Positions 537 through 62,700 of a stretch of 64,000 bases of DNA are shown piece by piece. The first letter of the stretch is position 1; each line of letters begins with the position of its first letter. The translations under genes and the position numbers were made by a program. Source of the stretch: Chrysoperla carnea (Eukaryota; Arthropoda; Insecta; Neuroptera; Chrysopidae); NCBI RefSeq assembly GCF_905475395.1, contig NC_058339.1:11354001-11418000 (forward strand), in the 5' to 3' direction. The notes beneath the pieces are model-generated. The model was not told where the DNA came from. It made no database searches and was given only the letters and a program-made list of their open reading frames with translations.

Positions 537-3078
537 TTGTACCTGGAAGTGAAGAATTAAGTGGTGAAGAAGATGCCACAACAACACCGCCACGACCGTT
601 TGGTGTAAAAGGAAAATCAACTGATAAAGTACGTTCAGTGCCAAAACCTAAATTAAAGAGGCCAAAAATATTAAAACGTCGTGGTTCAAGAAATTTATCA
701 ACAGCTCCAATGTCTGCAACGGGCGGAAAAGATTGGGGTGAACGTTGTGTCGATGTATTTGAAGTAATTGCACAAATTGGTGAAGGAACTTATGGCCAAG
801 TATATAAAGCACGTGATAAACGCGCCGGACAATTGGTTGCACTAAAAAAAGTGAGATTAGAAAATGAAAAAGAAGGATTTCCAATCACTGCCGTTCGTGA
901 AATAAAAATTTTACGTCAATTAAATCATAAAAATATAGTTAATTTACGTGAAATTGTCACTGATAAACAAGATGCCTTAGATTTTCGAAAAGATAAAGGT
1001 TCCTTTTATCTTGTGTTTGAATATATGGACCATGATTTAATGGGACTTTTAGAATCAGGAATGGTTGACTTTAATGAAATGAACAATGCTAGTATTATGA
1101 GACAATTATTGGATGGACTTAATTATTGTCACAAGAAATACTTTCTTCACAGAGATATTAAATGTAGTAATATTCTTATGAATAACAAGTAAGTTCAATA
1201 ATTATATATATATTGTTTTCACTTGTTTAAAATATTTTTAGCACTTATTTGTCCAAACAAAAACTATTTATGAACTAAACTTCCAAAAAATACTCAGTAC
1301 TCGCGTCAACCGTTCGGTTGTCCTTAATCGCGTGATGAGAGATTTACTCATGCGTTCTGCACATGCATTAACATACTGCTTCCCTATCAAAACAGGATGT
1401 AAACAGGATGGTAAATTAACGTCCTTAACTAAATTTACAATTTTTCTAGGGGTGAAGTGAAGTTAGCTGATTTTGGATTAGCACGACTTTATAATGCTGA
1501 GGATAGACAGAGGCCTTATACTAATAAAGTAATCACCTTATGGTATAGGCCTCCGGAACTTTTACTTGGCGAAGAACGCTATGGTCCAGCAATTGATGTA
1601 TGGAGTTGTGGTTGTATTTTAGGCGAATTATTTTGGAAAAAACCATTATTTCAGGTTATTTTTAATAATATTATCTCGTAATATTAGTACAGTATAATTT
1701 AGAATCGCGATCATCATTAAACAAACTTAGAATATCTTTCAAATTAATTAATAAATAAAATTTGATATACTGTACTAATATTTATGTAAATTGTTATTTG
1801 GACTAGAATGTCATGTTAAAAATAAAATTTTTTCAGGCTAATATAGAAATGATGCAATTAGAAATGATTTCGAGGCTATGCGGTACACCAACACCAGCAG
1901 TATGGCCGTCTGTTATTAAATTGCCATTGTGGCACACTTTAAAACCTAAAAAAATGCACCGGCGACGATTACGAGAAGAATTTGTTTTCATGCCAACATC
2001 GGCATTAGATTTGTTAGATAAAATGTTAGAGTTAGATCCTGAAAAACGAATCACAGCTGAAGATGCTTTAAAATCGTCTTGGCTAAAAAATGTACAACCT
2101 GATCAGTAAGTCATTTTATTTTTTTAATAGATCTTATTTTTTTTTGCAAATATTTTAAGTTCACAATTTTCCTGAAATAATGTATGTGTAATCTAAGGGT
2201 AGTTAACTGTAAATCCGAAATCCTTAAGTAAATAAAACAAAAACTAAAAATTTCTTCTACGGCAAGGTGTAAAAAAGTTTGTTCATGCCTGCTGAGCGAA
2301 ATTTACGGAGTCATTATGATGTCTAGTTAACATTAGACAGAATAACAGTTGGACAATAAAATGTTCTCGAGTAATAAACAAATTTTGAGACAAAACAATT
2401 GTCTTTAATATAAATATTATCGAAGATAATAAATGAGAACTCTAGGATATATCGAAATAAATTTCGAATTTTGGACCAATTTCCTAGATCAGTTTTTTGT
2501 ATTTTTAAAATACGTATTTTCGACTACCAAGTAGTCATCATCAGTAAGAATTAGCTAGTGATTACTTTGCACAATGATACTTTCGTGTGTCTACAATTTA
2601 TACTGTTCACAGTATCTGTCAAATTGTAGTATCAGTGGCGCTAGCCAATCAACTTCCATCAGTTGACTAGTGCTTGGCCAATGAACGTGATACTTGTGGC
2701 AGTTCTTTACCTTCGGGAGATTCTGAAATCATTCGACTGCTTTCGATAATCTTCCATAAAAACAACGTATGTTGTTTTTTGCTCTCTCGAAAACAGAATG
2801 TAATAAATATTGTCACGAGGCCCTAAAATTTAGTTCTGCACACAACGAATAAGTATTTAGTTAATTTTTAACACAAAATATTTCTTTTTTACTAGAATGG
2901 CAGCACCTCAATTACCTCATTGGCAAGATTGTCATGAGTTATGGAGTAAAAAACGTCGAAAACAATTACGAGAACAACAAGAATCATTACAGAATTTACC
3001 ACCAGGTAAACCCGGTGGTATTGCACGTGATATAAAAACATTAAATAAAGGAATAGATGAACCATCAGGATTAGTTGG
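537..3078 (+). CDS. Cdk12: Cyclin-dependent kinase 12 (partial: 5' end outside window)
   Basis: CDK12/CDK13-type serine/threonine kinase. In the known family it pairs with cyclin K and phosphorylates the RNA polymerase II C-terminal domain in the nucleus, supporting elongation and expression of long DNA-repair genes. Four exons are seen: 537-1188, 1450-1654, 1837-2105 and 2896-3078; phases agree at every junction. Exon 1 carries a basic [13 protein letters not shown] stretch, then the glycine loop GEGTYGQV (near 779), VALKK, the CDK12-type PITAVRE helix, and HRDIKCSN (near 1148). Exon 2 carries [27 protein letters not shown] and [13 protein letters not shown]. Exon 3 finishes the lobe ([26 protein letters not shown]). 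Exon 4 carries [17 protein letters not shown], the post-kinase motif diagnostic of CDK12/13. The donor of exon 2 (CAG|GTTATT) is weak; the others are standard. Reading through the last donor gives an immediate TGA (3080-3082). The N-terminal RS-rich part is not in the window. Confidence 0.95.
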
Positions 3079-5260
3079 GTGAGTCAGTCTTCTTGAAACG
3101 AAGTTGCGCTACTCCTGGAAATTACTAACTTAAAAATGGTGAAATATATTTTATTTCTCTTTACTATGTAAACAATTATTACAATTGTTCTACTTTCTTA
3201 AAAATGAGCATTATAAAATTGCTTGTTTACTTTAAATAATGGCCTATTTATATAAAATGAATATATATTATATATATTTATAAAAACTGTATAATAAATT
3301 TGTACATAGTAATTATTTAATGAAAACACGAAAATACCAAACGATTATTTTCGGGCTTTTTATCTTTATTATAAATGGAAAATAATTATGTAAAATAAAA
3401 TGGCATCAGCGCGTGTTATATACATATTTTTTTTTTAAATTATAATTACACGGTTATTGTGTTTCAATGAGAATGTGTTATAGCATCTTATAAAAGTATT
3501 GGTGAAAATATAGTGTGTCCCCCGGACAGAGGTAACTATACTTGTAAATTTTCTTATTTTGCATTTTAAGAAAAAAAGTCATTCTTTATAAGAAGTTTTG
3601 TATATTATGAAAAGTATGTAGGAATATTTAAAACTTCTTAATAATGTACAGGGTAGTCAAAAATTTGGAATCACTATTTTTATTTTTGGTAAACTACCCT
3701 TCGGTTTTAAAAGTTGACTAAATGTTACTAAAAAAAGTTACTCGAAATTAACAATTATGACTTTAAACAAAATATCAAAAAGATCTTTCCAACTTTGACA
3801 ATTCCATTCTTAGAGAATGTTTATCCGAGAAAATAAATTTTCTTGTTAATTTTCTTAACTAGTCCACAAAAAATTACATTCGCGGATAGTACATGTTAAT
3901 TGATTTATTATTATTTTCTTTCTTACGTTTTTTTTTATAATTAGAGCTTTTGTTCAAATAAAAAATGATGCTCTAATTAAAGTACACTTATCTTCTTGAT
4001 ATTTTGTATAGAGTCATAATTGTTAATTGCGAGTAACTTTTCTTAGTAACATTTAGTCAACTTTTAAAAACGAAGGGTAGTTTACCAAAAATAAAAATAG
4101 TGATTCCAAATTTTTGACTACCCTGTACATTATTAAGAAGTTTTAAATATTCCTACATACTTTTCATAATATGCAAAACTTCTTATAAAGAATGACTTTT
4201 TTTCTTAAAATGCAAAATAAGAAAATTAACAAGTATAGTTACCTCTATCCGGGGACACACTGTATATTTTGACTGTTCAAATTAAAAAAAGACTGTTCAA
4301 GTTGTGGTTGGAATTATGGAATTGTGTATCCCAGGCTCGTGTGCAGGAATTATCCAAGGGAGAGGTTCAAAATTTTGTTCGCCATGTTAGGTCATAAAGT
4401 CAATAAAAACCAGAAATTCTTTTTTCGAGTAAGGAAACTTAATAAGGTCAAAATGTGAAATTCAGTCACTGTTTTTCAATAAATGAATTCTGCGAGGTAC
4501 AGAAAAAAATTTTTCCAAAACTCTGTGTGCATCGACCTCCTCCACAACTCGATGTATATTGAACGAGGACTAAACCGTTTTGAAAACTTTCCTGTATTCT
4601 TCTCCAACGTTTCCTCTTCTTTCAAAATGTGTTTTTCAGCATCAGTAAGTTTGATAGCCTCGCCAAGATTCTGGTTTTCTGTTTGAAGTACTCGACTCAA
4701 AGACAAAGTCAAAGAATGTACCGAGCTCAAAATATGTATGGATATTTGATTCGTCAGTGGAAATGAGTCTCATAAATAGGTGCATTTACAGTACTATGTT
4801 GTTAGTGCAAAATGTATGTGGACAGATTCTCAATGGTAGGAGTTTTGTGTCCCCCAAAACTTCTCCCTTGCGCACGGACCTGGTGTATCCCGTTATGATT
4901 ACGTTACACAAATACTAAAAAAAAAATAATAAAATATGATCTGTTAAAAAGATCATAAACCTGTTCTTTCCTGAGTAACACAAATGTTGAATTTAAAAAT
5001 TGATGAGTTGTTACTCATTTTTTGTATAGTTAGAATCAAATGTTATATAATTATTATATTATTTAAGTTAATGATAAAGTGATAACTTTCTTATAATTTT
5101 CATGTACTATATATTATTATTAATAATCTTTTTTATTTAAAAAAAGAGATTTTAAATAGCTTTCACTTATATCCTGAAGAAAAATATGTATGAAAATTCA
5201 TATCTTTTGGTACATCAAATGTTTATAAATTATCTTCGTTTTTTTTCCACTTGCATTTAG
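3079..5260. other. Non-coding stretch after Cdk12 exon 4
   Basis: Probably a Cdk12 intron. It holds the fold-back element at 3511-4262. The stretch 4300-4900 is open for short runs on both strands but shows no domain I recognise; it is probably degraded repeat. The rest is AT-rich and featureless. Confidence 0.5.
3511..4262. mobile_element. Long fold-back (palindromic) element with mariner-like ends, flanked by TA
   Basis: The left arm starts TAGTGTGTCCCCCGGACAG and the right arm, read in reverse complement, starts CAGTGTGTCCCCGGATAG. The arms stay complementary almost to the centre (near 3887); for example GGTAACTATACTTGT at 3531 pairs with the stretch near 4230. TA dinucleotides lie at 3509-3510 and 4263-4264, as expected for a Tc1/mariner-type target duplication. 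There is no transposase ORF, so it is a non-autonomous MITE of about 750 bp. Confidence 0.85.
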
Positions 5261-5308: not shown

Positions 5309-6179
5309 CAGGGTGGGTCATTTTAATAATATATTATGGATAATAGCTCGTTTTGTAGTTAACCAATTAAAAAACAAGTTAAACAAAAATTGCAGAATTT
5401 GATAGGTGACATTCTGACATCAGATTGGACCTAGTTCTCTGGGTTGATTTTAATAGTCAATTTAGATCCTAAAAGGTAAGAGATAGAATAAAACTTTAAA
5501 TTGAGAAAGTTAATAAAACTTTAAATTGAGAAAGTTGATTCTCATAAAAAAATTTTGCCAAAAGTTGTCAAAGAACAATAGAGGAAATTCGCCTGTGACC
5601 ATGGCTTTTACACGAAATTCTAGTTTCAAGGTCAGTAGACCTAGATCTTCAAATTATCTTGTTGGCTTTAGAAAAATTTTCATACAAAACTTGTCAAGGT
5701 CAATAAAGGTCATGTGTCTGTGTTAATAACTTTTAAGCCCAGGTAAATTTTCAAGATAATTTGAAGATCAAGGTCCAGTGACCTTGAAAGTAGAATAACC
5801 ACAGAAAGCCATGGCCACAGGAGAATTTCCTCTATTGCTGTCAACTTTTGGCTGAAACATTTTTCTGTAACTAGCGAGTTTTCTTTCGATTAAATGCCAT
5901 AACGACATATTTTTCCGAAAGCTAATAATTTTTGAAGAAATATTTTAAATAAAAAATGCTAGTTTATTTATGATGATCGATTTTCTAATTCAAATTGTTA
6001 CTCTATCTTTGACCTTTTAGGATCTAACTTGACTGTTAAAGTTACCTGGAGAACTAGGTCAAATCTGATATCAGAACATGATTTCTCCCATCAAACTCTT
6101 CAATTTTTGTAAGTTATTTTTTGATTGGTTATCTAAAAATGGGCTATTAGCCATAATAGATTAAAATGGTCAACCCATA
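5309..6179. mobile_element. Long fold-back element, about 870 bp
   Basis: Left end CAGGGTGGGTCATTTTAAT; the right end read in reverse complement is TATGGGTTGACCATTTTAAT. Inner blocks also pair, including AGAGGAAATTCGCCTGTGACCA at 5580 with the inverted copy near 5810-5835, so almost the whole element is one imperfect hairpin. The open frame at 5526-5726 is part of an arm and is not a gene. It lies between Cdk12 and CtIP and directly abuts the next element. Confidence 0.8.
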
Positions 6180-6181
6180 TA

Positions 6182-6446
6182 CAGCCACAACCAACAGAAA
6201 AATGTTCAACAGGTACACTAAAAATTCATTGGCAGGCGGTTTTCTCGTGTACAAACTTTAACATAACAATATTTTGTTAGCTAATATTGATTGTGTTGAA
6301 GTTTGTACACGAGAAAACCGTCTGCCAATAAATTTTTAGTGTATTGAAAAGTTTAGTCTTGTCTTTTATTCAAATGAATGGCAGACTGTAAAAAGTTGTT
6401 CTCTTTGTTTTACAAACAAATGCTTTTTTGTTGTTGCCTGTGGCTG
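6182..6446. mobile_element. Small TIR element with TA target duplication
   Basis: Ends CAGCCACAACCAACAG on the left and, inverted, CAGCCACAGGCAACAAC on the right, with TA at 6180-6181 and 6447-6448. An internal inverted repeat (6218-6346, arms of about 45 bp around AAGTTTGTACACGAGAAAAC) forms a strong hairpin. No coding capacity. Confidence 0.75.
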
Positions 6447-7182
6447 TATATAATGTCCTCTTATCATTGGCAGACTGTAAAAAATTGATTTTTTTCTGTC
6501 ACGAACTGACAATCTTTCATTCTAGGATATAATGAATATATCGAATTTAATAAAAAATTCATTTTGTTTTAATTTGGAAGAAAAATAATGTACTGTTTTC
6601 AAATAAAGAAGTTTCACAAAAGTTATTTTTTTACATTATTCATTTATTTATTCAATTTATTTTTTTTAAAGAATCCATCCTTTTTACAGACTAAAATTGT
6701 GTGATACAGGTGTATATGTTTATATCAAATTAAAGACTGAGAAATAGTGTGATTAAAAAGAAAATTTTGCACAATTTTAGACTGTCACGAGTAGAGTATT
6801 TAAAAAATAAATTATTGAACAATTTTTATTACAGATAGAAATTATTTGACGGCACTTAAAAAGTGAGTCAATGTAAAATCAATCTTCATACATATTTCTC
6901 TTTGCAATAATTTTGTGATAAATAAAAATTGAACAAATTATGTATTTAAAAAAAAAAAAAAAAAAAAACAAATAAAATTATGGGTTTCCTAATTTTAAAC
7001 AATATAATTTTTATAAATGTAAACCTGTGTTTTTAATTCTAACCTATTATTATCCCTATTATCCCTGTTTTTTTTTTTTTTAAATTAAATTTGGCATATG
7101 ACAGATATTTTGAAACATTGAGGTTATATTTCAATGTGTTCATTTGTGAGTTTGAATTAGAATGTCTCGTTTTTAATTAAAA
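6447..7182. other. Intergenic and 5' flanking region of CtIP
   Basis: AT-rich and non-coding. It contains a direct repeat of GGCAGACTGTAAAAA (6379 and 6470) and an A-run of about 18 bases near 6951. Possible polyadenylation hexamers (AATAAA near 6604 and 6971) could serve the upstream Cdk12 gene. The CtIP promoter must lie in the last few hundred bases, but I see no clear core motif. Confidence 0.5.
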
Positions 7183-10100
7183 ATGGTTAATTTAAGTTTA
7201 AAAAGTACACGAACATTAAAAAATGTGTGGGAATCATTATATGATAATAAAACATTATCGTTTTTTGATGAAAATGATGAATTTTTACCTATATTTATGT
7301 TGATGAAAATTTTAGAACAAAAGGTGCAAGGTAAGTAAAAAATACAAAATAATTACAGAATAAATAAAACAACGTAGACCTAACTTAATAAACAATGACT
7401 AAAAACTATCTGTTCTAGAAATAGTGTAGAATTTATTACGATTATAATCTCAAAAATAAAAGCTCGAATAAAACTCTATCAATAACAAGTGAAAATAAAC
7501 AATTAACTGAGTTAATTGTTGAAATACCATATATAGACAATGTTGATGACGCCACACACACATTAAATAGCCACACACACATAACTGATATTCCCATATT
7601 AATATATACTATAAAATTTGCACCTAATAAGCGCCCTCGTGGGTAAACAGTAATGTTCACAAAAAAATGTTTCAAACAAAAGTTGTTTATTTTTTTATAA
7701 GAAACATTTTTTACATTTAAACTTTTGTTCTATCTCTAACGGTTTACAAGTTGGGTCCTACGGACCCTAGACCCAATTGACCTATGTTGCCCATTTACGA
7801 ACTCGATCTCACTTTTTATGTCCTAAGCAGGCTGTAATCTTGGTATCATTTTTCGTTTTTGAGTTATCGTGTTGACAGACAGATGGACAGACAACCGGAA
7901 ATGGACTAATTAGGTGATTTTATAAACACCTATACCAAAATTTTGTTCGTATCCTTAATATTTTTAAGAGTTACAAACTTGGGACTAAACTTAGTATACC
8001 TTGCATATTACATATACGCATGGTATAAAAATTGTGAATTTACTTTAATGCTTGGTAAATATTTCAGAATTGGTGACAAATCAAAGGAAATGTACTTGTA
8101 AAAATCCTGCTAGGAAACTAGATAAAAGTATACAAAAAGGATTAAATTCACCAGAAACTATTTTAGATTTCAAAGAACAACATAACAAAGTAATTGGGGA
8201 TTCTCCTAACGAAATAATTAATGAACAATATCAAAATACACCAAAAAGTTCACCAAAACGTTCTATTTATAATGAAAGAAATCTTTGTGAAGAAATAGTT
8301 GTTGAAGAAACTGAAAATATACAAGAAGAATTAAATTTCAGTAATAAACATTCCAGTAATAGCGGAAAAAGGCTTTCTAAAGAAAGAATTATTAAAGAAA
8401 ACCTTTCTCCTAATGAAATAATTGATGAAGAAAATCAAAATACACCAAAAAGACTAAGTTCACCAAAACGTTTCATTTTTAATGAAAGAAATCTTGCTGA
8501 AGACACTGAAAAAATACAAGAAAAATTAAGTTTTCATCATAAACATTCCAGTAATAATGAAAAAAGACTTACTGATAACATAATAATTGAAGAAACTGAA
8601 AATATCCAACAAAATTTACCAAATCCGTTTGTAAAAACTGAAACGAAGTTTTCAGATCCATTTTTAGTAATAGAAGAAACTGAAAATCTCGAAGAACAAT
8701 TAAATTTACCAATACACGAAAAAAGACTTTTTAGTCAAATTATTGATCTAGATTCAGGAAGTGACTCAAGTTTGGACATAATCAATGAGAGTTGTGTAAC
8801 AAATAGTATTGAAACTAGTCCTGTATTAAAAAATAAAAATATTAAAAAGATTAGTAGGCTGAGGAAAAGTTTGAAATTAGATAGAAGATTTAAAAGTGAT
8901 GATACAGGAATAAAAATACTCAAAAATGATATGAATGAAACTAAAAAGAAAGATAGTCCGCATAAGTCTAAAAAAGTGTAAGTTTTATTTTTTATATTTT
9001 AAATTAATTTCAAAATCGTATTAGTAAAATATTGATAAATGGAAGTTGCAACCCCGCCAACTGGTCATAATAATTCGTACTAATTAAAACAGGAAGTGTG
9101 CCCGTTTTCAGTAGTTCTAATTTAGACTACCAGATGGCAATACTTGTACTCATCATTTTTAAAGGACAATATAAATATTCAAAATCAAATCAGATAACTG
9201 AGAGTTGCAACACGACATTTTTCGAACAAAAAATATATATTAATACATTAATTTTAATGATTTTTTAGCATACAATCGAAATTGGACACCATATATAAAA
9301 CCGAAAAGATAAAGCCAAAGCCTCTTGAAGCTGTACAAAAAATTATACAAAATAAAGATAATATACAGAAAAATAAACAAGAATTAGAATCATCGAAGAC
9401 TGTAAAAAATTTTGAGAAGTTTGAACGTATTCAAAATGATTTCCTCGATCCTGATGAAACTCAGTATAATAAGCATATTTTTTTCATTATATACGTACAT
9501 ACTAAATTATTATTTACTTTATTACAGACTGGATCCATTTGCTCCAACATTTTATTGTCCGAATCCGACAACACCTGTAAAAACTACTAATGAAGAAAAA
9601 GTCAAGTAGGTCCTTCTTTAGTATAATTTTCATTATTGATATTTAAACCACTAAATTATGAGTATGATTTTTTTTTTAGATTATCGCATGCAAACAAACC
9701 AAAATTAAATGATTGTTATGTAAATGAAAATGCAGACGAAATTAAAAAAGAAAATTTAGAGGAAGAGAAGCCAAGACAAAATATTAGGAAATTTAGAGAC
9801 ACTAGTTATGACAGGTAATTAAACGATTCGATTTTTTCCCCCAATTTTCTAGATCAATTTTTGTTTTATACAAATACATATTTCGACGTGCAGAAGTATG
9901 TAGATTCCATCATGTTTTTACTGATTTCTAAATGTTTTTTTTTTTTAACAGAATTCCTGAACATGACGATGAACCTAAATTTGCGCATCGACGATATGCA
10001 GTTCGAAAAAAGGCAGATAGAGCCAAATTAAAAGGACAAACGTGTTATCAATGTGAAGCAGTAAGTATTTTAATAGCGTGACGAATAACTAGATTGTTTT

Positions 10101-10634: not shown

Positions 10635-12884
10635 GAAAATATTATTTTCAATTAGAATTGAATATTTTTGTTCAGTGGAACCAAGACTATGATTCCCTAA
10701 TATACGACCGTAACTACGATTCATGTATTTCTTTTTTTACTATAATGTTGAGACAATCAGGGAAAAGTATCGAAATTTAGTGATACAAACCAATTCGATC
10801 GCCACCTTGAAAATAAAGTTCACTCATTTTCCCAACTTTTCTTTAGAAAATACTGAATAATTTTGATTTTTTTTTTAAATAACATAAAAAAAGTGAAAAA
10901 GATTTTAAAAAATTATAACGAATTTAAAACGTTGATTTTGCGCTAACTTGTGTATTTTTGTTAAATTTTTTATTATTTTTCCACAATGTTAAAATTGTTA
11001 AAATTGTTGAAAATTTAGAATAAATGAAAACGTTATCCCGAAAAATGACTTTATACTGTATAAAATGTGAAATATGTACAAATATATATAATAAAATATC
11101 GTTTATATCAATTTTTCTGATTTAATTATTATTATTCAATATTATACCTACCTTTATCTTTTATCCTTTACATCGATTTCAGGAATATCAAACAGAACCT
11201 TCAATTTTAACAAAATATTACTACAATTATTCATTTATAGGTAAGATTATTAAAAAAGGTGAGTAGAAGGTATTTATATTACATTATTGATAAATATAAC
11301 AAGTCTAAGGTGGAGTAGTGGCTAGCGCAGTCGCCTCCGGTTAATAAGTACCTCGGTTCGAATCTAGCAATGCTTCGATTACTTTTTAATTATATAAATT
11401 ACCGAAATAAAATAATTTTTTGTAGATAATTGTTATGAGAACCAAAAATAACAAATAAGTAAGAGAGCGGGGTATATTTTATGTTGTTTTAATTCCCACC
11501 CCTCTGACAGAAGAGTGATTTATGACATAAGTAGGAAAGTGGGACTAACAACATAATTACATTTTTTTTTTTGTGAAATAACATGTTCTCCTATTACAGA
11601 ATCTTATAAAATTTAATTTTGTAGCATGTACAACAAAAAAGCAAGCAAAATAAGTATTTTTTTAATATTTTGTAATAGGAGAATATGAGTGAGATAAACT
11701 ATATGACATGTTCTCCTATTAAAAAGTTTCAAATTTTAGCATAACCAAGCCATTTTTATACATATTTTTAATATTTTGTAACAAGAGAACAAAATTTTCA
11801 ACAGTGACATATTTATGACTGTTTAAATTCCCACCCCCTGACAGAATTGTGATTTATGACATATGTATAACTGACGTTATTTATAGCAAGAGGGCGTGTT
11901 ATATAGATAATTTAAACTATAAAAAGAGTGGAAAATTTTCAACATCAGAAAAAATTCATTTAATTTAAAAGTAAAAATGTTAGCCATACCTGGATACGAA
12001 CCAGCGTACCTTGGATTCATAGGCAAGTCTTATACTGACACAGCCACTCAGTTTATTGACATCTATATAATTAACTTAACAGTTATCTTTACTTAATAAA
12101 TAATTAATTAATAATGAATGTGAAATATTTATATCCAAAAATTGTTAATAATAAACGAACAATCAATAATTTCTTAAAATACATTGATTAAAGAAGTAAA
12201 AAGTGGAAATCAATAGTATGGGGGGCTAACTTATGGACAAATAATTGTTTAATAAATAATAAATAAACAACGATCGAACCAATGAAGAACAAACGACGGA
12301 CAATGAATTAAAAAAGATTTATAATTAATTAACCCGAACAAACTTTTTTGGGGGGCCAAATTACGTTAGTTGATATATTAGTAATTTGCCAATTCACCGG
12401 GTAATAATAATTGAACTGCGGCTTGAATTTCCCGACTTGTGATTGTTGAACGTTTGTTATAATCAGCCAAACGTGATGCTTCAGCAGTATTGTGTAAATA
12501 GGACTTAAAAAATAGTTTTTATAATTTAAACTAGTCTTTACATAAAAGTTACTAACATATAACTTTTGATTAAAGTTGGTAGTAATGTAAATACAAATTT
12601 ACAGTACACTTGTATTAAGATGACTTTGCACAGCATAATATTTCTCACATAAAAAAGGATGGATAAAGTGAAAATAATGCAACAAACAAAGATACCAACA
12701 TACTACTATTGTAAAGAATATATTAATATTATAAAAATTACTATTTTATAATAATTCCCTACAAAGTGTGGGGATGGGAATATGGATGTGACTGTTCGAT
12801 CTGCCGGTATAATTTCCCGCTTGGAATAATACAGTCCTTAAGTTTTTTTTTGAAATAATTAAATTTGTTTAAATTAAATACAAA
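10635..12884. other. Intergenic region between CtIP and PPM1G
   Basis: No coding frame recognised. The middle is occupied by the tRNA-ended composite element (11308-12058). The last 300 bases before 12885 are the presumed PPM1G promoter and 5' UTR; no distinctive core-promoter motif is evident. Confidence 0.5.
11308..12058 (+). mobile_element. Composite element with tRNA-like ends in inverted orientation (copy 1)
   Basis: The left end (about 11308-11380) reads like a tRNA gene: an A-box-like TGGCTAGCGCAG, then GCCTCCGGTT and a B-box GGTTCGAATCT. The right end (about 11985-12058) is tRNA-like on the minus strand, with TGGCTGTGTCAG, GACTTGCCTATGAA and a B-box GGTTCGTATCC. The interior has two direct copies of a block (AATTCCCACCCCTCTGACAG at about 11491 and 11825, each followed by GATTTATGACATA) and several copies of an 18-bp motif around TGTTCTCCTATTAC. 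The same architecture occurs inverted at 30808-31680. Best described as SINE-like, of unknown class. Confidence 0.7.
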
Positions 12885-21826: not shown

Positions 21827-21863
21827 TTTTTAGTTGTAAATAAAATAATTTTTAGGATGGGTA

Positions 21864-22569
21864 CGGAAGCCTGAATGTCCCAATAGCTTTTTTTTAAAAG
21901 TGTCTACCCACAAATATAAAACCAACTAGTTCACTTTCAACAAGTGCACTTGTAACTTGTGGGACATAATGGAAACAAACCTTTTTGAAAATGTCAGTCG
22001 GTAATGACTATTCTTTAATTAGCCACTATCGAAACTGTCTGGAATTATTAATAATTGTATGTCCGGATTTAATGAAAATAATTAAATTTAATGATAATGT
22101 TTATAATTTGTCTTACGTAGTTAAAAATTTTTATTAATATTATTTAAAAAATATAATGCTTTAATTAGCCTTTTTTCTCATAAGATCCGATAGATGGCAG
22201 AACTAGAGTAGGTAAAAATATTTTGATTTCCTATATTTTTATTTCCTGTCATCTATCGGATCTTTTTTTAATCTTCTGAGGAAAAGGCTAATTAATAAAA
22301 ATTTTTAACTAACTACGTAAGATAAATTATAAACATTATCATTAAATTTAATTATTATCATTAAATCCGGACATACAATTATTAAAAATTTCAGACAGTT
22401 TTGGTAGTGGCTAATTAAAGAATAGTCATTACCGACTGTCATTTTCAAAAAGATTTGTTTCCATAAAGTCCCACAAATCACAAGTTCACTTGTTGAAAGT
22501 GAACTAGTTGGTTTTATATTTGTGGGTAGACACTTTAAAAAAAAAGCTATTGAGACATTCAGGCTTCCG
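21864..22569. mobile_element. 706-bp fold-back element between IFT20 and the BTB gene, flanked by TA
   Basis: Both ends read CGGAAGCCTGAATGTC inward, with TA at 21862-21863 and 22570-22571. The arms are complementary along nearly their whole length: TGTCTACCCACAAATATAAAAC, AACTAGTTCACTTTCAACAAG and GTCCGGATTTAATG all recur inverted. Near the centre, AGATCCGATAGATG pairs with CATCTATCGGATCT. No coding capacity. It lies 36 bp upstream of the IFT20 start codon and about 217 bp upstream of the BTB gene start codon. Confidence 0.9.
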
Positions 22570-22786
22570 TAAATGGGTGCTGTAAAAAATATTTATGCAG
22601 CGATCATTTAACAACATGTAATTAATTAAATTTATGCATGATTTATTATTATAAAATTTAATATTTCGTGTTAATAATTAGTTCTTTTTTTTATAAATAC
22701 ATTGTTGTTAATCATTCATTGTTTCGTTTAGTGTTTTATAAACCATAAAAATTGGGTTATGGTTCACTCAAATTTTCAAACTTGAA

Positions 22787-25489: not shown

Positions 25490-25991
25490 TATCCAGTCAA
25501 ATTAGTCCATAAAATATAAGTAAGGTTACAAAAATTCCCATAGAGCTAAAAATTGATATCAATGGTCAGAATAATATTATAAATGTATTGTGAAAAGTCC
25601 CCATCAATCCTCCTTGTGCAAAAAATTTTATTGAGGGGGGAAGTTTGCAAAAATAAGCTTTTCGCGTTTTTCAGCAAAACGATGAGTTTCACAGCAAAAA
25701 TAGAACCGCTATATCACGAAAATGGCAGCATGATCTACAATTTTTTTTCTGGACTATTTTTGCTGTTAAACTCACCGTTTTGCTGAATAACGCGAAAAAC
25801 AAATTTTTGCAAACTTCCCCCCTCAATAAAATTTTTTGCACAAGGAGGATTGATGGGGACTTTTCACAATACATTTATAATATTATTCTGACCATTGATA
25901 TCAATTTTTAGCTCTAGTATTCTGAACATTCATACCAAATTTTAGCTCTATGGGAATTTTTGTAATCTTCAAAGTGTAATTTGATTGGATA
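25490..25991. mobile_element. Fold-back element downstream of the BTB gene
   Basis: The arms are near-identical inverted copies: GGTTACAAAAATTCCCATAG, TTGATATCAATGGTCAGAAT, GTGAAAAGTCCCCATCAATC and CTCAATAAAATTTTTTGCAC appear on opposite strands on both sides of a centre near 25735. The arms are so alike that both strands carry the same short open frame beginning MYCEKSPSILLVQK. The 3' end of the BTB transcript could run into it. Confidence 0.85.
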
Positions 25992-29967: not shown

Positions 29968-30180
29968 TGCCATCTATGGTAAATTTTATTGAACTACCTA
30001 TTAAGTTCGACGATGATGCCATCTATGATAAACTTCTTGAACTAAAATTTATTTGGACGGCAGTGCCATCTATGTTAAACTTATTGAACTAAAAATTTAT
30101 TTCGATGGTAGTGCCACCTATGGTAAACTTGTTGAACTAACTATTAATTTCGACGGCAGTGCCATCTATGTCAAACACCA
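29968..30180 (+). repeat. Minisatellite with 48-bp period
   Basis: TGCCATCTATGGTAAAC-type units start at 29968, 30016, 30064, 30112 and 30160, an exact 48-bp spacing. Each full unit continues TTATTGAACTAAAATTTATT and TTCGACGGCAG with a few substitutions. Four full copies and one partial. Confidence 0.9.
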
Positions 30181-30807
30181 CAATATAGTTAGCGTGGAAT
30201 ATTAATAAAATTTATTAAATCATATATCAAAAAATTGCTCTCTAAATGCTCCATCAGATTCCAAAATTGCTCCAATTATTAAATTATCAATTAATTAAAT
30301 ATTTGCAATTAAAAATACAAAATTTTATTTTCCAATATCTCAGTAAATTGATAGTTTTTCCTAACGTTTTTGCTATCAATAAATTGCTCCCGTTTATTTC
30401 TTTCGGGATATAACAATAACGATTTATAAATATCTATTATTTTTGCATAATTAATTAAAATTAATAATTGCAATTCAAACAGGTATGTGATGACGTCATT
30501 CACAAGGGGAATGTCATAAACTGGGGGGAGCGGGAAGGGAAAGAAAAACAAAAAAGAAATAATAATAGAAAGTAAATAATTAGATGTATCAGTGAAAAAT
30601 ATCAAAAAATTGCTCCGTAAATACTGTTTCAGATTCCAAAGTTGCTCCAGTTATATAATTAATATGTAATTAAATATTTTCAATCGTTATATATTCTTTT
30701 TGTTTTATTTTTTAAATTTTCTATCCTATTTTTTCTTTCAGAACAGAAATATCAATTCATTAATTATTTAATAAAGGTAAGTATTAAATTAATTATATAG
30801 TTATTAA

Positions 30808-31680
30808 TAACCCGGTTGGCTGTGTGGTTATAGCACTTGCCTATGAAACATATGTACAATGGTTCGTATCCTGGTGTGGCTAACATTTTTAAATTAAATG
30901 AATTTTTTCTGATGTTAAAAATTTTCCACTCTTTTTATAGTTTAAATTATCTATATAACCCGCCCTCTTGCTATAAATAACGTCAGTTATACATATGTCA
31001 TAAATCACTATTCTGTCAGGAGGTGGGAATTTAAACAGTCATAAATATGTCACTCTTTAAAATCATGTTCTCCTGTTACAAAATATAAAAAATATGTACA
31101 AAAATGGTTTGGTTATGCTTAAATTTGAAACTTTTTAATAGGAGAACATGTCATATAGTTTATCCCACTCATATTCTCCTATTACAAATATTAAAATTTG
31201 TATTAATAAAATTAAAAAATCGCTCGTTAAGAACAAGATTTCAAATTTTGTAACAGAAGAACATGTTATATATTTTATCCCACTTTTTTTTTTATAACAT
31301 ATTCGCCTATTACAAAATGTTAAAAAAATTCGTATTTTACTTGCTTTTTTCTTTGTACATGCTCTTTATTCTTAAATGAAGTTTTATAAGATTTTGTAAT
31401 AGGAGAACATGTTAATGCACAAAAAAAAAAATTAATTATGTTAGTCCCACTTTCCTACTTATGTCATTAATCACTCTTCTGGCAGTGGGTGGGAATTAAA
31501 ACAACATAATTATGTTAGTCCCACTTTCCTACTTATGTCATAAATCAATAAAAAAATGATATTCTCTCACGGCATAATAACTTATTTAATTAAAAAATTT
31601 TCCAGGATTATATTGGATACGAACCGAAGTACTTTATAACCGGAGGCGAGTGTGTTAGCCATTACTCTATCTTTGACATA
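30808..31680 (-). mobile_element. Composite element with tRNA-like ends (copy 2, inverted)
   Basis: Left end: TGGCTGTGTGGTTATAGCAC, ACTTGCCTATGAAACA and a B-box GGTTCGTATCC, followed by TGTGGCTAACATTTTT. Right end read on the minus strand: TGGCTAACACACTCGCCTCC, GGTTATAAAGTACTTCGG and a B-box GGTTCGTATCC. Its ends match the opposite ends of 11308-12058, so it is the same element inverted. The interior carries at least six copies of the ATGTTCTCCTATTACAAAAT motif on either strand and the AATTCCCACC/TCTGACAG block twice. Confidence 0.7.
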
Positions 31681-32160
31681 TTATACTTATCAATAATGTA
31701 ATATACATACCTTTTACTAACCTTTTTTTTAATAAACTTGTTTTCTTAAACTTACAAATTATTGATTCCTGATTCCTGAGTTGCATCTTTAAACTGCTGA
31801 AATAATATATTTGAAAAAATAAAAATAAATAAAATTCCGTTAATTTAAACAAATGTTTATTTTAAAACAAAAAATACTGTTTCATAATACAATGTAAGTT
31901 TTATAAAATTAAAATTAAATTTATTGTCCAAAAGACTAGTTTGATATGAAACAACACGAGTTTTACATTTGTGAAACTTATCCTTAACAAATTTAAATAA
32001 ATAACAATATTTTAAAATTAGATATTTTAAATCAAAAAATAAACTGTAGGTACTTAACAATTATAAATAAAACTAATTAATTTTATTGCTTGGAAATATT
32101 AACAACAGATTTTAAGGGGAGATAGTGTTTTATACAAAATTTTAAATAACTGAAAATTAA

Positions 32161-32192: not shown

Positions 32193-35100
32193 TCAATGTA
32201 TTTCAATAGGTGGCTTAAAATCTCCACATCGTGGAAAATTAGGAGGAACTGGTGGTAAGTCTCTATGGGTACCAACATGAACAACTAAATTCATCCCTAT
32301 TACAATATGGAACAAGAAATGACAATGGAATAACCAGTATCCTGTGAAAACAAACAAATAATAAAAGATTAGTAATCAATCTATTCAAGAAATTTTATTT
32401 TAAGGTAATTTGTTACTCAAATCACTCAATCTTTTCAGCTGTGAAATCAGTTTTTCACTAGCTATCACTTATGTGCTTCATTCCGGGACCAGGACTCCAC
32501 ATTCTTAAAACCTATTAGAGCTAGGTAAATTTTGATCACAAATTTGAAAAGTATGACCCAAATTAAGTAGGATTACATACTTGGTTTATCAAAATTGGAT
32601 AAAATTTGGATGTGATAGAGCAAAATTAAATTTTTTGGATTCTGATGACGTCATAAAGTTAAAAAATTCGATTTTTTTGATAACACAGGCAAATTTGATC
32701 CGATCTTATTGGAATTTTTATTGAAACCCACTAATTTTGGGTCATTCTTTTCAGCTGTGATATCAGTTTTTCGCTAGCTATCACTTATGTGCTTCATTCC
32801 GGGACCAGGACTCCACATTCTTAAAACCTATTACCGCTAGGTTAATTTTGATTACAAATTTGAAAAGTATGACCCAAATTAAGTAAAATTACATACTTGG
32901 TTTATCAAAATTGGATAAAATTTGGATGTGATAGAGCAAAATTAAATTTTTTGGATTCTGATGACGTCATAAAGTTAAAAAATTCAATTTTTTTGATAAA
33001 ATAGGCAAATTTGATGCGATCTTATTGGAAATTTTATTGAAACCCACTAATTTTGGGTCATTCTTTTCAGCTGTGATGTCACTTTTTCGCTAGCTATCAC
33101 TTATGTGCTTCGTTAAGGATCAGGTTCTGGTAACAAACTACCTCTCTTAAATAACTAACCAGGATTGTCAGCTCTAAATCTGAATACAACATAACCATTG
33201 TTTGGTACAGCAATTGTATCTTTCGACGGTGGTTTATTAAACTGTCGGTGTAGTAAACCTCGTCGATCTAAATCCAATGCATGTTTTAAATTAATTTTCT
33301 TGATTTCCTTGTCTGGCGATCGTCCAACACCAATTACATTAAATGAATATCCGTGTAAGTGGAATGGATGACTCAAGTTTGGAGATTGTACTAAAAATAA
33401 AAATTTATTGTGATTATTATTATTGTATTAATACTAGCCTATATTAAAACAAGGAGGCCTGTGCTTACAGGGGGGGGGGTTGGGTTTTCAAACAGGATAG
33501 GGGATAAAATATCTTAAACAAAAGTCATAGTTTAAACCAGGGCTTCTTAAACTTTTGTAATTCACGACCCCATTTATGATTGCGAGTTTCTTGACGACCC
33601 CATACAAATATAAAAGAAAAATAAATTAATATTTTTTGATGATTTTTTGATGATTAGGTAACAATATATACATACGAAAATATGTAAGTTTAGAATTCGT
33701 TTTGAAACATACAAAAAATTAAAATTAAAAATTGCACAAAAAATTATAAGATTGTATTTATTATAGTTTCAAAAATAAAAGTGGATTCTGACCGTCTTAA
33801 TTCTCTCGAATATATTCAAGTAGTTGCGTGGTAAGTATTAAATTAAAGTATAAGTTAAAAATTTAATGAGATGGATGTGCCTGTTTTTTATTGCATAACA
33901 AATCAAATCTTGGTGGAATGTTTGAAACTGCTGGACGTAAGACCTCTTCAACATTTTTTATCGCTGAACGATATTGGGATTTAATATGTGTTAAAGCTGT
34001 TTCTTCAGCATTAATACCTAGAAATTTTGTTGATAATTATTTCTCGGGATTATTTCGGCTTTTAGAGATTGACAAAAATAAATTTATATTTTTTATTAAT
34101 TCCAATAACATTTCATAATTCATAGTAAATGTTATTCAAGTTATTATAATACTCTTAATAGAAAAGCAGGTACAAACAATCTTTCCGAACTAGAAGATTT
34201 TATGATATATTTATCTACGATAATTGTTATTCTATCTTCATAACAATAATTTTACAAGTTAAAAAACATTTTCTGTCAAATTGTATTTTTACCTCTCGCG
34301 ACCCCAGAATTTTGCTACGCGACCCCAAATGGCGTCGCGACCCATAGTTTAAGAAGCCCTGGTTTAAACAAATAATTTACCTTCATCAACTAAAACAACT
34401 TCCACAATTGCATTTAATGGAATATCAACTTTATGAGTACACATACAGTTGGCTCCACAATCTGGTGGTCTGTTATCTCCATTACAGAAGAGTTCCGGAT
34501 CAAGATCATTAATTTGCGATAAAGGTGGTGATGGTGGGAATGTAAATGAAATTTCATCAACTAAACTGATTACATGATCTCCACCTGGTGCAGCTGAAAT
34601 TTAAATTTATACGGTAAGTATTGCATACATATTTAAAATTAAATCCATCAGGTCTTCATTTCAAGATCTTAGGACTAGTATTCGTAGAAAAAACAACGAT
34701 CTATCAATATAAGGTCTTTTTTTCCTGGGATAGAATAATTTAAAATAAATTCTAGTTGAAAAAAAAATACAAGTCTTTTGTTTCAAAAAAAACCCAATTC
34801 TTCTTTTTCAAGCAAGTTTAATTTTATTATTCTTTTGAAACTAATAGCATTGCTTTTTTTATCTATGTGCGTTTTAGGCCAAGAATAGGATTGATTTGAT
34901 AATATGTTATTTTGTTGAATTGAATTGACAGTTATTATGAAAGAAAAAGGGGGTTTCATTGTCCCTTTTTGAAAAAACAATGACATATCTTCAACAAATG
35001 TGCCACGTTTTCAAGCGTAATATATGCCAAGAACAGGAATGACTTCTATTTTGGCTAGACTTACCTTAAATCCTTATTATATGAATAATTGACTGTCAAT

Positions 35101-38700: not shown

Positions 38701-41700
38701 TATTTCTGGGACATCATTTCCTACAGCGATCGTTCTCCTTCTTTCTAATCTCCATGACTAATTTGATGTAATTTTTAATAGAATACCTTAAATATACATC
38801 TTGCGTATAATACTATATTTGAAATAAGAAAAATAGAAAAGAAAAAAAAAAATTTAAAATCATATAAAACATAAAAAAAAATAATACAAAACATAAAAAA
38901 TTAATATAAAACATTAAAAAAAATCAGACATTTCGCATTCATACGATGTTGAGGAGAGCACCAATTAAAAACATAGCAACTATCAAAAAATAAAAAACGT
39001 TTTACAAATAAATACACAAAAAATATAAAAAAAGTTACGTCTTTTCCTGTAAATTCATCCAATTTCTATCTCTTGATTGTAACAGTTTTAAGTTAACGAT
39101 GGTAACAAAAAAAAATTTATTAATACTTAAAAAAACTAACTTAAAACTGAAACAAAGAAAATTACATTTAATACAAATATTTAATATCTAGGAATCATCT
39201 AATTAAGTGGAATAGGTGGTAAATGATCTCCACATGTTGGGAAACCTGGTGGTATTGGTGGTAAATCGGCGTGTGTTCCCACTTGTAATACAAGATTCAT
39301 ACCAATTACAATGTGGAACAAAAAGTGACAGTGGAATAACCAAAAACCGGGATTTTCAGCACGGAATCTTAATACAACGTAACCATTGTTTGGTACAGCG
39401 ATTGTATCTTTAGCTGGTGGTAAATTGTATTGTCTGTGTAAAAGACCTCTACGATCTAAATCTAAGGCGTGTTTTAAATTGATCTTTTTCACGTTTGTAT
39501 CGGGTGATCGACCAACACCAATCACGTTAAATGCTTGACCATGCAAATGGAATGGATGACTTAAATTTGGTTGTTGTACTAAAAAAAGAAATTCAATATT
39601 TCGTTATTTTAATTTTTAACAAAATGGGCTGTTAATATATATAATTTTGTTCCATTTGTACTTCGAAAACTAGAAAAACTACTACTGCAGTTTTGGGTAG
39701 GATGGACAGTTTTCTATCCTAACACAGAAATAATACTTGTTTTTTAGTTTTCTTTCTAAACAATGTCTTCTTTTAATTTTATATACTTTTCCTACTATGT
39801 TCTACCTGTGTAAATAGTAATTGGCTAATGAAATTCCTTGGTAAAATAGACATTTGAAAATGTGATAGCCTTCGAATTCGTTAAATTCGAAAAATTAGAG
39901 ACTATGAAACAACAACAAAAGTAGCTGGGAGTCAGATATGCTGCATACGGTGGTGATAAATCAATTTAAACTCCAATTCGTGGGTTTTTGTTAATGCATC
40001 TTTGGTTTTGAAGGTGCAACTGTGGCATCAACACGTACGTAGAGCTTTCTATGCTTAAATCTTCAATCATTATATGAGAAAACAAGTTCTTTCGTGATCT
40101 CTTCTGCCTTTTCTATTTCTAGAGCATTTGGTGAACTTTTTCGATGTGATCCTCGTTAGCTGCAATTTTACGTTGTTTCGAAGATCGAATATTCGACATT
40201 ATCAACTAAGATGGTTCGTTATCAACAATGACACACTAACATTGACTGATACAAACGGCTGTGAAACAGGAACTGATTGTCGAACATTGGTAGAATTTTC
40301 AAAAGAACCTCTGAATAAATAAAGTATCTTGGAATTTTAATGGTTATAGGGGACCGTAAATTTAACTTCAGTTTTCTCGTAGATTCCAACAGATATGTCC
40401 GTGAATTTTCGAGGTGTAGCCTATTATCCCTAGATTGGAATTTGCAAGGAGCAAGAAGAAAAAGAAGACCCGAGAAACATGAAGAAGGACAATTGAGAGA
40501 GAACGAAGGAAGTGAACAAGACTTGGGGCGAGCTGAAGGCTCTTGGTGGAGACAGGGACGGGTTGAGAGCTCTTCTGGATGCCTTATGCTCCCACAGGAG
40601 ATAAAGGAAATCCTACAGGGATGCACCCACAAGAGATAAACGAAACTCTTTGCAAGGAGTAAAAGAGAATACACGAGTTAAGCAGTTTAATGAAGAAATC
40701 TAACGTTTTGAGAAAAGTTTAATGGTTACTGAGATTTTGACAATGGGGAATTCCATCGAGCTCAATACTAGTATATAGAATATAGCAAGTTTAATTCTTC
40801 ACTTACGTTGGACACTATTTGATCGAATTCGCATAGTTTACTACTGTTCTAATTATGTTTTGTTCTGATAACTGTTATTAACAGAGTATCCTAGTTTTAG
40901 AAATACAAAGGACAAGAAAAGTTTCTTATATTTTTACCTTCGTCAACGAGAACAATTTCAACAATCGCATTTAATGGAATATCAACTTTATGAGTACACA
41001 TACAATTTACTCCACAATCTGCAGGTCGATTATCACCATTACAAAATTGTTCTGGATCAATATCATCATACTGTGAAATCATAGGCGATGGTGGTGACAA
41101 ATAAGAGATTTCATCAATTAAACTAATAACATGATCACCATTTGGAGCAACTAAAAACAATTTTTGACCATCAAATAAATAAAATTGATATCATCAAGTT
41201 GCATGCACATTATTTTATATAAAATAAATTCAAACCTAAATGACGATTGTATGTATTTGGTGCAAATAAATCTTCTGGTGTATAAACATGGAAACGGAAT
41301 GGTAAAAATATTTTCACATGTGGTTGTTCTTGTAGAATGCCTTCATCAACAGCACGTGCATTCTTTAATTGACTCACACATACTGCATCATTACGTTCTT
41401 CATTACATCTTGCATCTAATGGATTTAATACCTGGTGGATATCCGCAAAATATTTATGATCAAAATCAATCAAAATTTTGAGTTTGTTATTTGTTATTAT
41501 TTTTCAATATGTTACTTAAATGGACCAAAATGGATTATTTGATGAATTTTATTAGATGATATGAGTTCACTTACCAATCATAATTTAAATATTTTTTTAT
41601 TTATTGCTGTAATCGAAACTTACAGTAAATTTTTATTAGTTTCCAACACCGGGAATATAACTACTTAATAAGCAACTTATTTCAATATTTCAGAATATAC

Positions 41701-59700: not shown

Positions 59701-62700
59701 CATCGTCATAAAAACTGACCTTAAAATTTATTATACGCCTATGAAATTTGTCTTACCATAAATTATAAGCAGTAAATTTAATATTTTTGCTACAAAACAC
59801 AAGTTAGCTTATCCACCACTATAAGTTTTTGTTGAAAGATTAATTTGATTGCACGGATAAATATACTAGAAGGCTTTTTTGGTTTACTTAAAACAACGAG
59901 CGATCATTTTACGCCGACGGATCATTATAGACTACTTTCCCCTGTATTTTAAAAAACGCCTTCAAAAAGTACATTAATGTAAAGTTTGATTAATGGTAGG
60001 TACTACATCCTCCCCTATAAGTAAATGCATATAAATTCAATTAAAATAATATTACGAAATTAAAAAGTTTAAAATCGACTGTTTAATATATTATAAAATA
60101 AAAAAATTTAATTAAAATAAAATATTAATTATAAAAATTGCATAAAATATTTACAATAATTTCTTTTTTTGGTAAGATTTACGTTAAGAACTTTTTTCAA
60201 TTCATTGAATCTAACAAGATTTGCTATTTAATAAATGATTTTTTGTAAGATGTTTGATAATATTCTTCTTAACTCAGACCTAAATACGTGTAGGTAATTC
60301 AATTAAAATTTTGTAATAATATAATATATTATTTTTTATATATTCATTATAATGTAATAATGTGATTTAAAATTCTTTTTTTTTAATGATTTAAAATAAT
60401 GTTTAAAAGAGAAAAAATTTATTGGTGTGGGAATATTTTAAAGTATACTCTCATTATGTGCTAAAATAAATTACTTTTACGCTGGATTTTTTTTTTTACT
60501 GTATTAAAAGTATTCATTTAAAAATAAGTCTTTTAAAAGATTTATTATGCAAGTAACGAACGTTTTTAACTTTGGTTTTATCTTTAATAGGCTTATTATA
60601 TGCTTGTCATTGATGGGGACTATTACGGATACTAAATGTCGACTTGTTGGTACAATTGGGTAAATAATTTTATACATTATTTCTCTAGAGTGTTTATCTG
60701 TCCCATGGTTATATCTTCCTTATTCCATTATCAAATTCAATGATTTATCCCTCATTTTCAAGCTAACCGTGAGGGCTAATAATGAAAAATAGACTCACAG
60801 TCTGCAATTATTGAGGTTTAATATCTCAGATCCACCATAATAAAAATCCAAGAGTAACTGTTTCGAATGAAACATTTTTATAGATGTTCTCCTAATACCG
60901 ATTGAAAAAACTAACAACATAAAGAGTGATGGAGACTTATTAGGAGAATAATATTTCAAATTGAACTATTTTTAAAACGTGTTCTTCTAATACTAATTTA
61001 AGCAATGACCATAGGTTAGCTACGAGTACCGCACTGAAGAATTTTCCACGAAACGAGCTAGTTTTTAAAAGGAGCTTTCTTCGGCTTTTGAGGAACCAGT
61101 TAGTTAGTGTGTGGATTGTTATAGGTTACACAGAATTCGTTCTGTGTCATTATTTAGTCAAATTGTGCCCTCATAGGTAAACAGTGATGTTTACGAAAAA
61201 ATGTTTCAAACAAAAGTTGTTAATTTTGTTACTAGGGAAATTTTATACATTTTTGATCTATCTCTTACGATTTACAAGATGACTCCCGCGGACTCAAGAA
61301 CCAAATGACCTATGTTGCTCAATTACGAACTCACACTTTTTACGTCCTGAGCACGCTATAAAAATTTCAGCTGAATATCTATTTTCATTTTTGAGTTATC
61401 GTGCTGATAGACAGAAGGGCTACCGGAAATGAATTTTATGAACACTTATACCAAAATTTTGTTCGTAGCATCAATATTTTTAAGCGTTAAAAACTTGGGA
61501 CTAAACTTAGTATAACTTGATATATTTCATTAATACATGTTAAAACAGTTTGGGTCCAAACTTAGTATACCTTGATATATTTGATATTTACATGGTATAA
61601 AAACTCCCAACCTGATCCAAATTTTTATCCAAAAGGTGCAAATTTGTTGGTCAAAATATAATAAATTCAAGATTATCATTTGGCATAAATACATAACTAA
61701 CTAAATCAATAATTAATCCAGGTGGAAGGGGAAGCTACTCTGATATCCTAACAGTGAATCCCTTTATTTCAAAATAAATTATTTTTCATTTTAGCATGTC
61801 TCAACTTGCCGTAGTTGCCGGTTTTTTTTACAGTAGAAATCGTTGATAATGAATTAAATCGTGATTTATGATTTATTGAAAATAGGTGTGCATCTATTCA
61901 TTAATAATATCTTTCTATTAATTTCATTTTTTGCACATAAAATCAGTGACATGAATTAAAAAAATCCATGAATGATAAAAAATTTCATTAATAAACGAAG
62001 TAATAAACGTAGTAATAACGAAAGTAAATTAAGTATTTTCTTTTAATAAATATTTCTTTATGAATAAAAAAATTAGAACAAATAAAAAAATAATAAATTA
62101 ATACAATTATTTGCAGTTTTTTTTTCAATATTTAGTAAGAACTAGAATTAATAAAAATTATATTTATGCAATAAATTATTGAAAATCGTGACAAAATGTT
62201 TTATGGTTTAGCTTGATATTACTGCATATTTGTATTAATTAATAAATTTAATAAAGGAAATGAAAATATATTATTTTTAATTTTATTAATAACATTTATT
62301 ATGGTATATTAACTAATAATTTTTTTTTTTTGTAAAATATAATTTTTTTTAGATTATTGTATTCAATTTTTATAAATTACTTTTGGTCAATAATTAATTC
62401 GTTAATTTAATTTAAGAAGTATTTTTGTTTAATATTCAGACGTCGTTTTGAATTGTGAATTTCTGGGAACGATATTCGAAAATTGAATACATGCTTTACG
62501 ATTATTTGATATAATTTTTTTGGAGTTAATACAAAACGTTATAAAACGCAAGGTTGTTTAAAACATTATTAATATACCAGATTAACACTTTTAAAAACAC
62601 AGATAAACTTATAACACTACTTTAATCAATATCAAAGCGATGGTCAAGGACATCAAATGAGATGAAAAAATACTTAGAGAGCTATCATTTTTTGGGACAA

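Follow-up and report, generated by a model that had tools for sequence, protein, structure and literature searches.

In a 64,000-nucleotide stretch of the Chrysoperla carnea genome (hereafter the window), a composite sequence carrying two different tRNA-like segments that face each other occurs twice. What kind of element is this, and what are its tRNA-like segments? A preliminary description had set its limits at 11308-12058, taken the tRNA-like segments for the element's ends, proposed that overlapping and complementary Pol III transcripts would arise from them, and placed the whole in an unrecognised class. We compared the two copies with each other and with the host assembly (559 Mb, 337 contigs).

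Layout of the two window copies

The two copies align in opposite orientation, ~11238-12113 of copy 1 against 31744 down to 30748. Copy 2 (30748-31744) is thus an inverted copy 1 with an identical L-core-R order, which agrees with the inverted pair first described. The limits 11308-12058 are too narrow for this alignment, and copies elsewhere in the genome reach further. Identity between the window copies is 95% in the core and 79-82% in the ends.

Copy 1 begins with a left outer arm outside the tRNA-like unit (LO, 11042-11305, plus strand). It is covered by other loci and matches the LO profile with E 2e-49, copy 1 itself being among the profile members. The left tRNA-like unit L follows (11313-11392, plus strand), with an A box at 11323-11334, a B box at 11355-11365 and then a T5 run. 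An internal motif X (11478-11533, plus strand) recurs in the same orientation at 11812-11867 (88% in self-BLAST), and inverted-arm pairing places a hairpin at 11583-11686, with arms 11583-11605 and 11664-11686. The conserved core (11656-11970, plus strand) is the inner part of the R half-arm and matches both halves of a relative, L051, described below. On the minus strand are the right unit R (11972-12054; A box 12046-12035, B box 12002-11992, then T5) and a partial right outer arm (RO, 12063-12207; profile E 3e-14, also a profile member), for which the collinear BLAST limit is +461 from the core start. Copy 1 consists, on the right (~11660-12115), of one R half-arm and, on the left, of L with a linker of its own. 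Folding of the entire copy 1 gives a z of -3.87 (20 shuffles).

Copy 2 has RO at 30581-30800 (plus strand; profile E 2e-35), R at 30809-30891 (plus strand; B box 30861-30871), the core at 30891-31195 (minus strand; by BLAST to copy 1), L at 31588-31667 (minus strand; B box 31615-31625, A box degraded) and LO at 31674-31870 (minus strand; profile E 8e-25), both outer arms being members of their profiles. An extra hairpin unit with approximate limits 31196-31327 (minus strand) shows as an alignment gap and is missing in copy 1; at other loci, too, a second core-like match adjoins the core.

Inward-facing splice-like signals (TTTTTTCTTTCAG ... AAAGGTAAGTA) lie in the outer arms at 30773-30783, 31715-31725 and 11255-11265, the last being a splice-donor-like AAAGGTGAGTA on the plus strand. 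Three of the four arm positions carry the exact word AAAGGTNAGTA, which has no other occurrence in the window; in shuffles it appears 0.22 times on average and twice at most.

A dispersed family with variable borders

The window unit gave 579 first-look candidates in the host genome, and the best 40 of them were scored, with 72 matches. Further queries returned 532 first-look candidates for the core, 563 for the R-outer sequence, 596 for the R half-arm, 188 for the L unit alone and 241 for the R unit alone; these totals are not copy counts, and the best 40 were scored in each search. The order L(+)-core-R(-) was found in 22 of the 30 loci fetched first (L001-L030, scanned for units and core alone). 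In the remaining 8, one unit is missing from the arrangement within the fetched stretch, and L020 has two further R matches. Together, the best 40 of the 579 candidates and the 22 ordered loci indicate a dispersed family, as opposed to a duplication confined to this locus. A composite unit bearing two different inward tRNA-like segments is therefore recurrent, as had been claimed, and the opposing case of solo SINEs only, or of one segmental duplication, does not hold. Both window copies belong to this family, which is non-coding and present in many copies, and both are old. A local inverted segmental duplication holding two SINE relics would account for the two opposite-orientation copies in the window, but it is refuted by the dispersed copies on contigs C1 to C6, and we give it practically no chance.

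The tRNA-like segments are not the ends of the element. Where the units are present, shared sequence reaches ~50-470 bp past them, so they are internal. Among 22 anchored copies, collinear limits from the best core match lie between -183 and -764 (left) and between +428 and +875 (right), for lengths of 931-1507 bp; the anchor point itself varies somewhat among these copies, and some limits are set by nested insertions. The borders vary, where constant ones had been named as support for the composite unit, and so the true termini were not found among the 22 copies. Expected target duplications did not emerge from background in these copies either: the longest common flank word averages 5.1, versus 4.9 for mismatched flanks, and one of the 22 copies has a common word of 9. 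As the copies are old, target duplications may have decayed. A 9-bp word in the flanks of copy 2, TTTAATAAA (30767 and 31728), was considered as a target duplication; among flanks paired at random it stands at the 99% level, and it was dropped because other genome copies continue past both positions.

Variable borders could be truncations of a larger, unrecognised mobile element, with L-core-R as an internal module. The gradual fading of homology on both sides would fit, as would further common sequence seen by eye on the R side in L034, L040, L042, L044 and L050. However, L-core-R is the best-covered part, and no stop-to-stop frame of at least 140 aa overlaps the units; we regard a larger element as unlikely, if still a serious contender.

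The sequence next to the units bears on whether they are SINEs. In 20 fetched 9.5-kb regions and the window (~254 kb), all strong matches (E < 1e-15) adjoin outer sequence, 22/22 for L and 24/24 for R. Because 19 of the L and 21 of the R matches are profile members, this adjacency test is partly circular; the independent cases are 3/3 for L and 3/3 for R. Weaker L matches (E above 1e-15) fall on R units or on the tRNA-like stretch of a nested element. No solo SINE was seen in the ~254 kb, by the same partly circular test. A partner was found for 14 of the best 40 scored RO places.

Two tRNA-derived SINEs might have come to lie head to head around a spacer, and the pair might later have been amplified together at the DNA level. 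In favour, the boxes mark both units as tRNA-like, L differs from R, and for most scored unit places no pairing could be made, a scored family neighbour being found for 18 of 40 R and 14 of 40 L places (best 40 of 188-596 candidates), so that solo units may exist elsewhere. On the other side stand the outer sequence at every strong match, including all independent ones, the position of the outer sequences upstream of the presumed Pol III starts, and the inversion in L051 of an entire half-arm, beyond the tRNA head. The tRNA-like head is not a 5' end, as outer sequence common to the copies lies beyond the units. Besides the absence of target duplications above background, no constant 3' tail was seen by eye in the outer sequences; RO holds an internal (TTA)n stretch, also noted by eye. 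We find such a SINE dimer rather improbable.

tRNA-like units and their predicted transcripts

Exact matches to GGTTCGNATCY in the window are just the four B-box-like sites of the two copies, at 11355-11365 (+), 11992-12002 (-), 30861-30871 (+) and 31615-31625 (-); with one mismatch allowed, 7 matches are observed versus 2.31 expected. A purpose-written A+B-box scan, based on consensus motifs and on 60 shuffles, gave five window sites with a score of at least 16 (shuffle mean 0.15, maximum 2) and one with a score of 17 (zero in 60 shuffles). The five sites are the L1, R1 and R2 ends, another B-box candidate next to L1, and a site elsewhere, at 46565. At the fourth end (31657, A box degraded) the score is 15, and scores of at least 15 occur eight times in the window versus 1.85 per shuffle (maximum 6). 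Inward-facing A-box/B-box pairs at all four ends of both copies, as originally reported, are thus present above chance. Spacing between the A and B boxes, start to start, is 32 in L and 44 in R; 44 is the tRNA value.

The tRNA identity of the units rests on these boxes and their spacing. In a search of 15 loci with the Rfam tRNA model (RF00005), one R unit (L006) aligned over positions 1-71 of 71 with 21.4 bits and E 6.6, which is below the cut-off of 29 bits and not significant alone. The SINE-like arrangement of A and B boxes is present above chance, with a fold-level match in L006 only and below threshold. With E up to 10, the tRNA model matched neither the window copies nor L051; its lack of a match in the window copies counts against the reading as a foldback element with tRNA-derived arm segments. 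No tRNA gene, and hence no tRNA-gene cloverleaf, was called by ARAGORN in the window or in L001-L051. Matches of the hairpins to miRNA families all fell under gathering scores and were set aside.

All four window units have a T5-T6 run starting 26-29 nt from the B-box start. The word GGTTCGNAT is kept in 13/19 L and 14/21 R units, and among these a run of T4 or longer follows within 40 nt in 11/13 L and 14/14 R units. Chance values in 33 nt here are 0.18 for T5 and 0.39 for T4; against this T4 background, and with the runs inherited among copies, their role as terminators is suggestive. Given such T-runs, predicted Pol III transcripts would be short (possibly ~75-85 nt), would end before the core, ~580 bp apart, and would not overlap, so that the complementary transcripts initially envisaged are not to be expected.

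Compared with the 87 other columns, those of the B box show higher conservation (L, p 0.007; R, p 0.04), and A-box columns show no special conservation relative to other columns. The B-box signal, together with a core conserved above the arms, would suit a unit in which both promoters are active and complementary RNA runs through the core. The T-runs close behind the B boxes, in the window and in the GGTTCGNAT-keeping units alike, and the ordinary A-box columns speak against this unit, and we consider it very unlikely. It is also doubtful, in our opinion, that the arms each carry a working Pol III-type (TFIIIC-binding) promoter that contributes to mobility, to the choice of target or to the pairing of ends. 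If they did, a DNA transposon would be linked to Pol III promoters. Should TFIIIC bind the B boxes, the genome would contain a large number of paired TFIIIC sites, facing inward and at scattered positions.

Foldback geometry and relation to known elements

Among the best 40 of 241 R places, neighbouring R units no more than 5 kb apart converge in six cases and share a strand in one; no pair is divergent. Four of the convergent pairs span 781-860 bp, the other two 2.4 and 3.35 kb; one (L051) was sequenced, and the other five are known by position alone. L051 29-1014 (986 bp) aligns to its own reverse complement with 88% identity, and R, core and RO match on both sides. Two opposed R half-arms were found at C2:29251648, C2:26514826 and C4:52879025 (best 40 of 596), and no second half-arm at the remaining scored places among the matches listed. 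The long inverted arms of a foldback element are thus found in L051 and suggested by the other R-R pairs. R-R forms exist as a minority, and the L-R form seems commoner. Contrary to the suggestion of an unrecognised class, the palindromic relative and the further convergent R-R pairs point to foldback-type elements.

We compared the L and R ends by alignment and by profile. L1-R2 scores 57 versus a shuffle maximum of 43, L1-R1 scores 45 versus 43, and L2-R1 scores 44 versus 41 (500 shuffles each); the L2-R2 score of 38 is not significant, as 14 of 500 shuffles were as good. Built from L alone, a profile detects the two R ends of the window (E 0.0095 and 0.024); built from R alone, it detects the L ends (E 0.0032 and 0.028). 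At E < 0.01, the R-arm profile detects 7 of 19 L arms (best 4e-6) and the L-arm profile just 2 of 21 R arms, in both cases mostly over the tRNA-like part. The L and R ends are related by sequence, which favours the foldback reading. The arm-to-arm similarity is weak in L-R copies, including those of the window, which counts against it, as do the variable borders, the absence of a target-duplication signal in the 22 copies and the minority status of R-R pairs.

Overall, we suggest, with slightly better than an even chance of being right, that this is a family of non-autonomous foldback-type DNA transposons with a tRNA-derived segment in each arm, and that the window copies combine one R half-arm with one diverged L half-arm. 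The unit would consist of two inward-facing half-arms that meet at a hairpin-rich centre, each made of outer sequence, a tRNA-derived segment (A and B boxes, then a T-run) and an inner part; in some members the R half-arm stands on both sides as a near-complete palindrome. An ancestral arm may have captured a tRNA or the head of a SINE, and the captured segment may now be a passenger or a protein-binding part of the arm. The arm would then have become inverted-repeated and the foldback element would have spread as DNA, a transposase supplied in trans presumably acting on the arms. Copies with two different arms, L and R, would have become the common form. If this is true, promoter sequence derived from tRNA can become fixed in a DNA element's arms and be carried along as the element spreads.

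Among the literature covered, the nearest described type is Galileo. Galileo was called foldback-like because it has long inverted repeats, themselves internally repetitive, and no coding capacity; it was later assigned to the P superfamily and makes 7-bp target duplications with the consensus GTAGTAC (PMC2775673). The lacewing family resembles the Drosophila foldback-like elements (FB; Galileo/Newton/Kepler) in its long internally repetitive inverted arms, non-coding copies, related subfamilies and chimeras; it differs from Galileo by the tRNA-like segments in its arms and by the lack of detected duplications, where Galileo has those of 7 bp (PMC2775673). Like tRNA-derived SINEs of insects and plants (for a plant SINE, PMC9033089, which also names MITEs), it has A and B boxes in tRNA-like order. 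In contrast to such SINEs, it has two inward units with repeat sequence upstream of both, and no tail or target duplications were seen. MITEs are likewise short, non-coding and present in many copies with inverted arms, but the lacewing family has far longer arms, tRNA-like content and no duplications found. No report of tRNA-like segments in foldback arms was found in titles and abstracts, which is weak evidence of absence.

Conservation within the copies is uneven. When 18 full copies are compared in pairs (153 pairs), the core averages 0.91 identity, against 0.75-0.80 for L, for R and for the near part of the outer arms. As these copies had been picked for their score with the window copy, they may be a biased selection. 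Gene conversion between the two window copies was rejected as the cause of the contrast, which is the same among the 18 full copies. It may stem from constraint acting on the core, from conversion between cores or from the choice of copies by score. A core more conserved than its arms counts against the foldback reading, as a simple co-mobilised unit does not predict it, and it poses a concrete puzzle for the study of foldback multiplication.

Some family copies contain a younger element (~93-98% identical) that measures up to 2.5 kb and has inverted ends of 140 bp (AGCTCCGCGATCTTAG...). It was present in 4 of 20 fetched regions (L042 1798-4282, L048 1974-4364, L047 ~6059-7405 and L050 ~2013-3738), and three of its insertions have 9-bp duplications (TAACAAGAA, CAAAAATGG and AAGCAATAA), as in Mutator-like elements. 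It holds a direct RO-LO junction of the foldback family and another tRNA-like stretch, which we take to be tRNA-Arg-like and on which ARAGORN made no call. A dispersed repeat of the window with GCCCTCGTGGGTAAACAGTAATGTT... (7485-7837 and 61167-61519) has a relative inside the nested element with 9-bp duplications. Another repeat (CTAACGTAATTTGGCCCCCC..., window 12220-12390) adjoins several family copies on either side and occurs in the outer flanks of L002, L003, L009, L015 and L028 (both by eye).

The window is eukaryotic and AT-rich (GC 0.257-0.333); phage and plasmid searches and the contig patterns of viruses and prokaryotes gave no result for it. It contains four further inverted-repeat elements (3520-4254, 21862-22571, 25541-25916 and 5576-5837) with arms of 86-265 bp that are 85-97% complementary, and copy 2 is flanked by a 48-bp minisatellite (29968-30170, 4.2 copies) and a 316-bp tandem repeat (32426-33111, 2.2 copies). 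Pfam matches were obtained for 5 of 8 window frames: a protein kinase, a PP2C phosphatase, a BTB domain and two pieces of a multicopper oxidase, which we take to be insect laccase-2. Two stretches of the multicopper oxidase gene region are duplicated with their order kept (33157-33405 and 39345-39593; 34376-34599 and 40933-41156), and these are probably alternative 3' exon sets of laccase-2.
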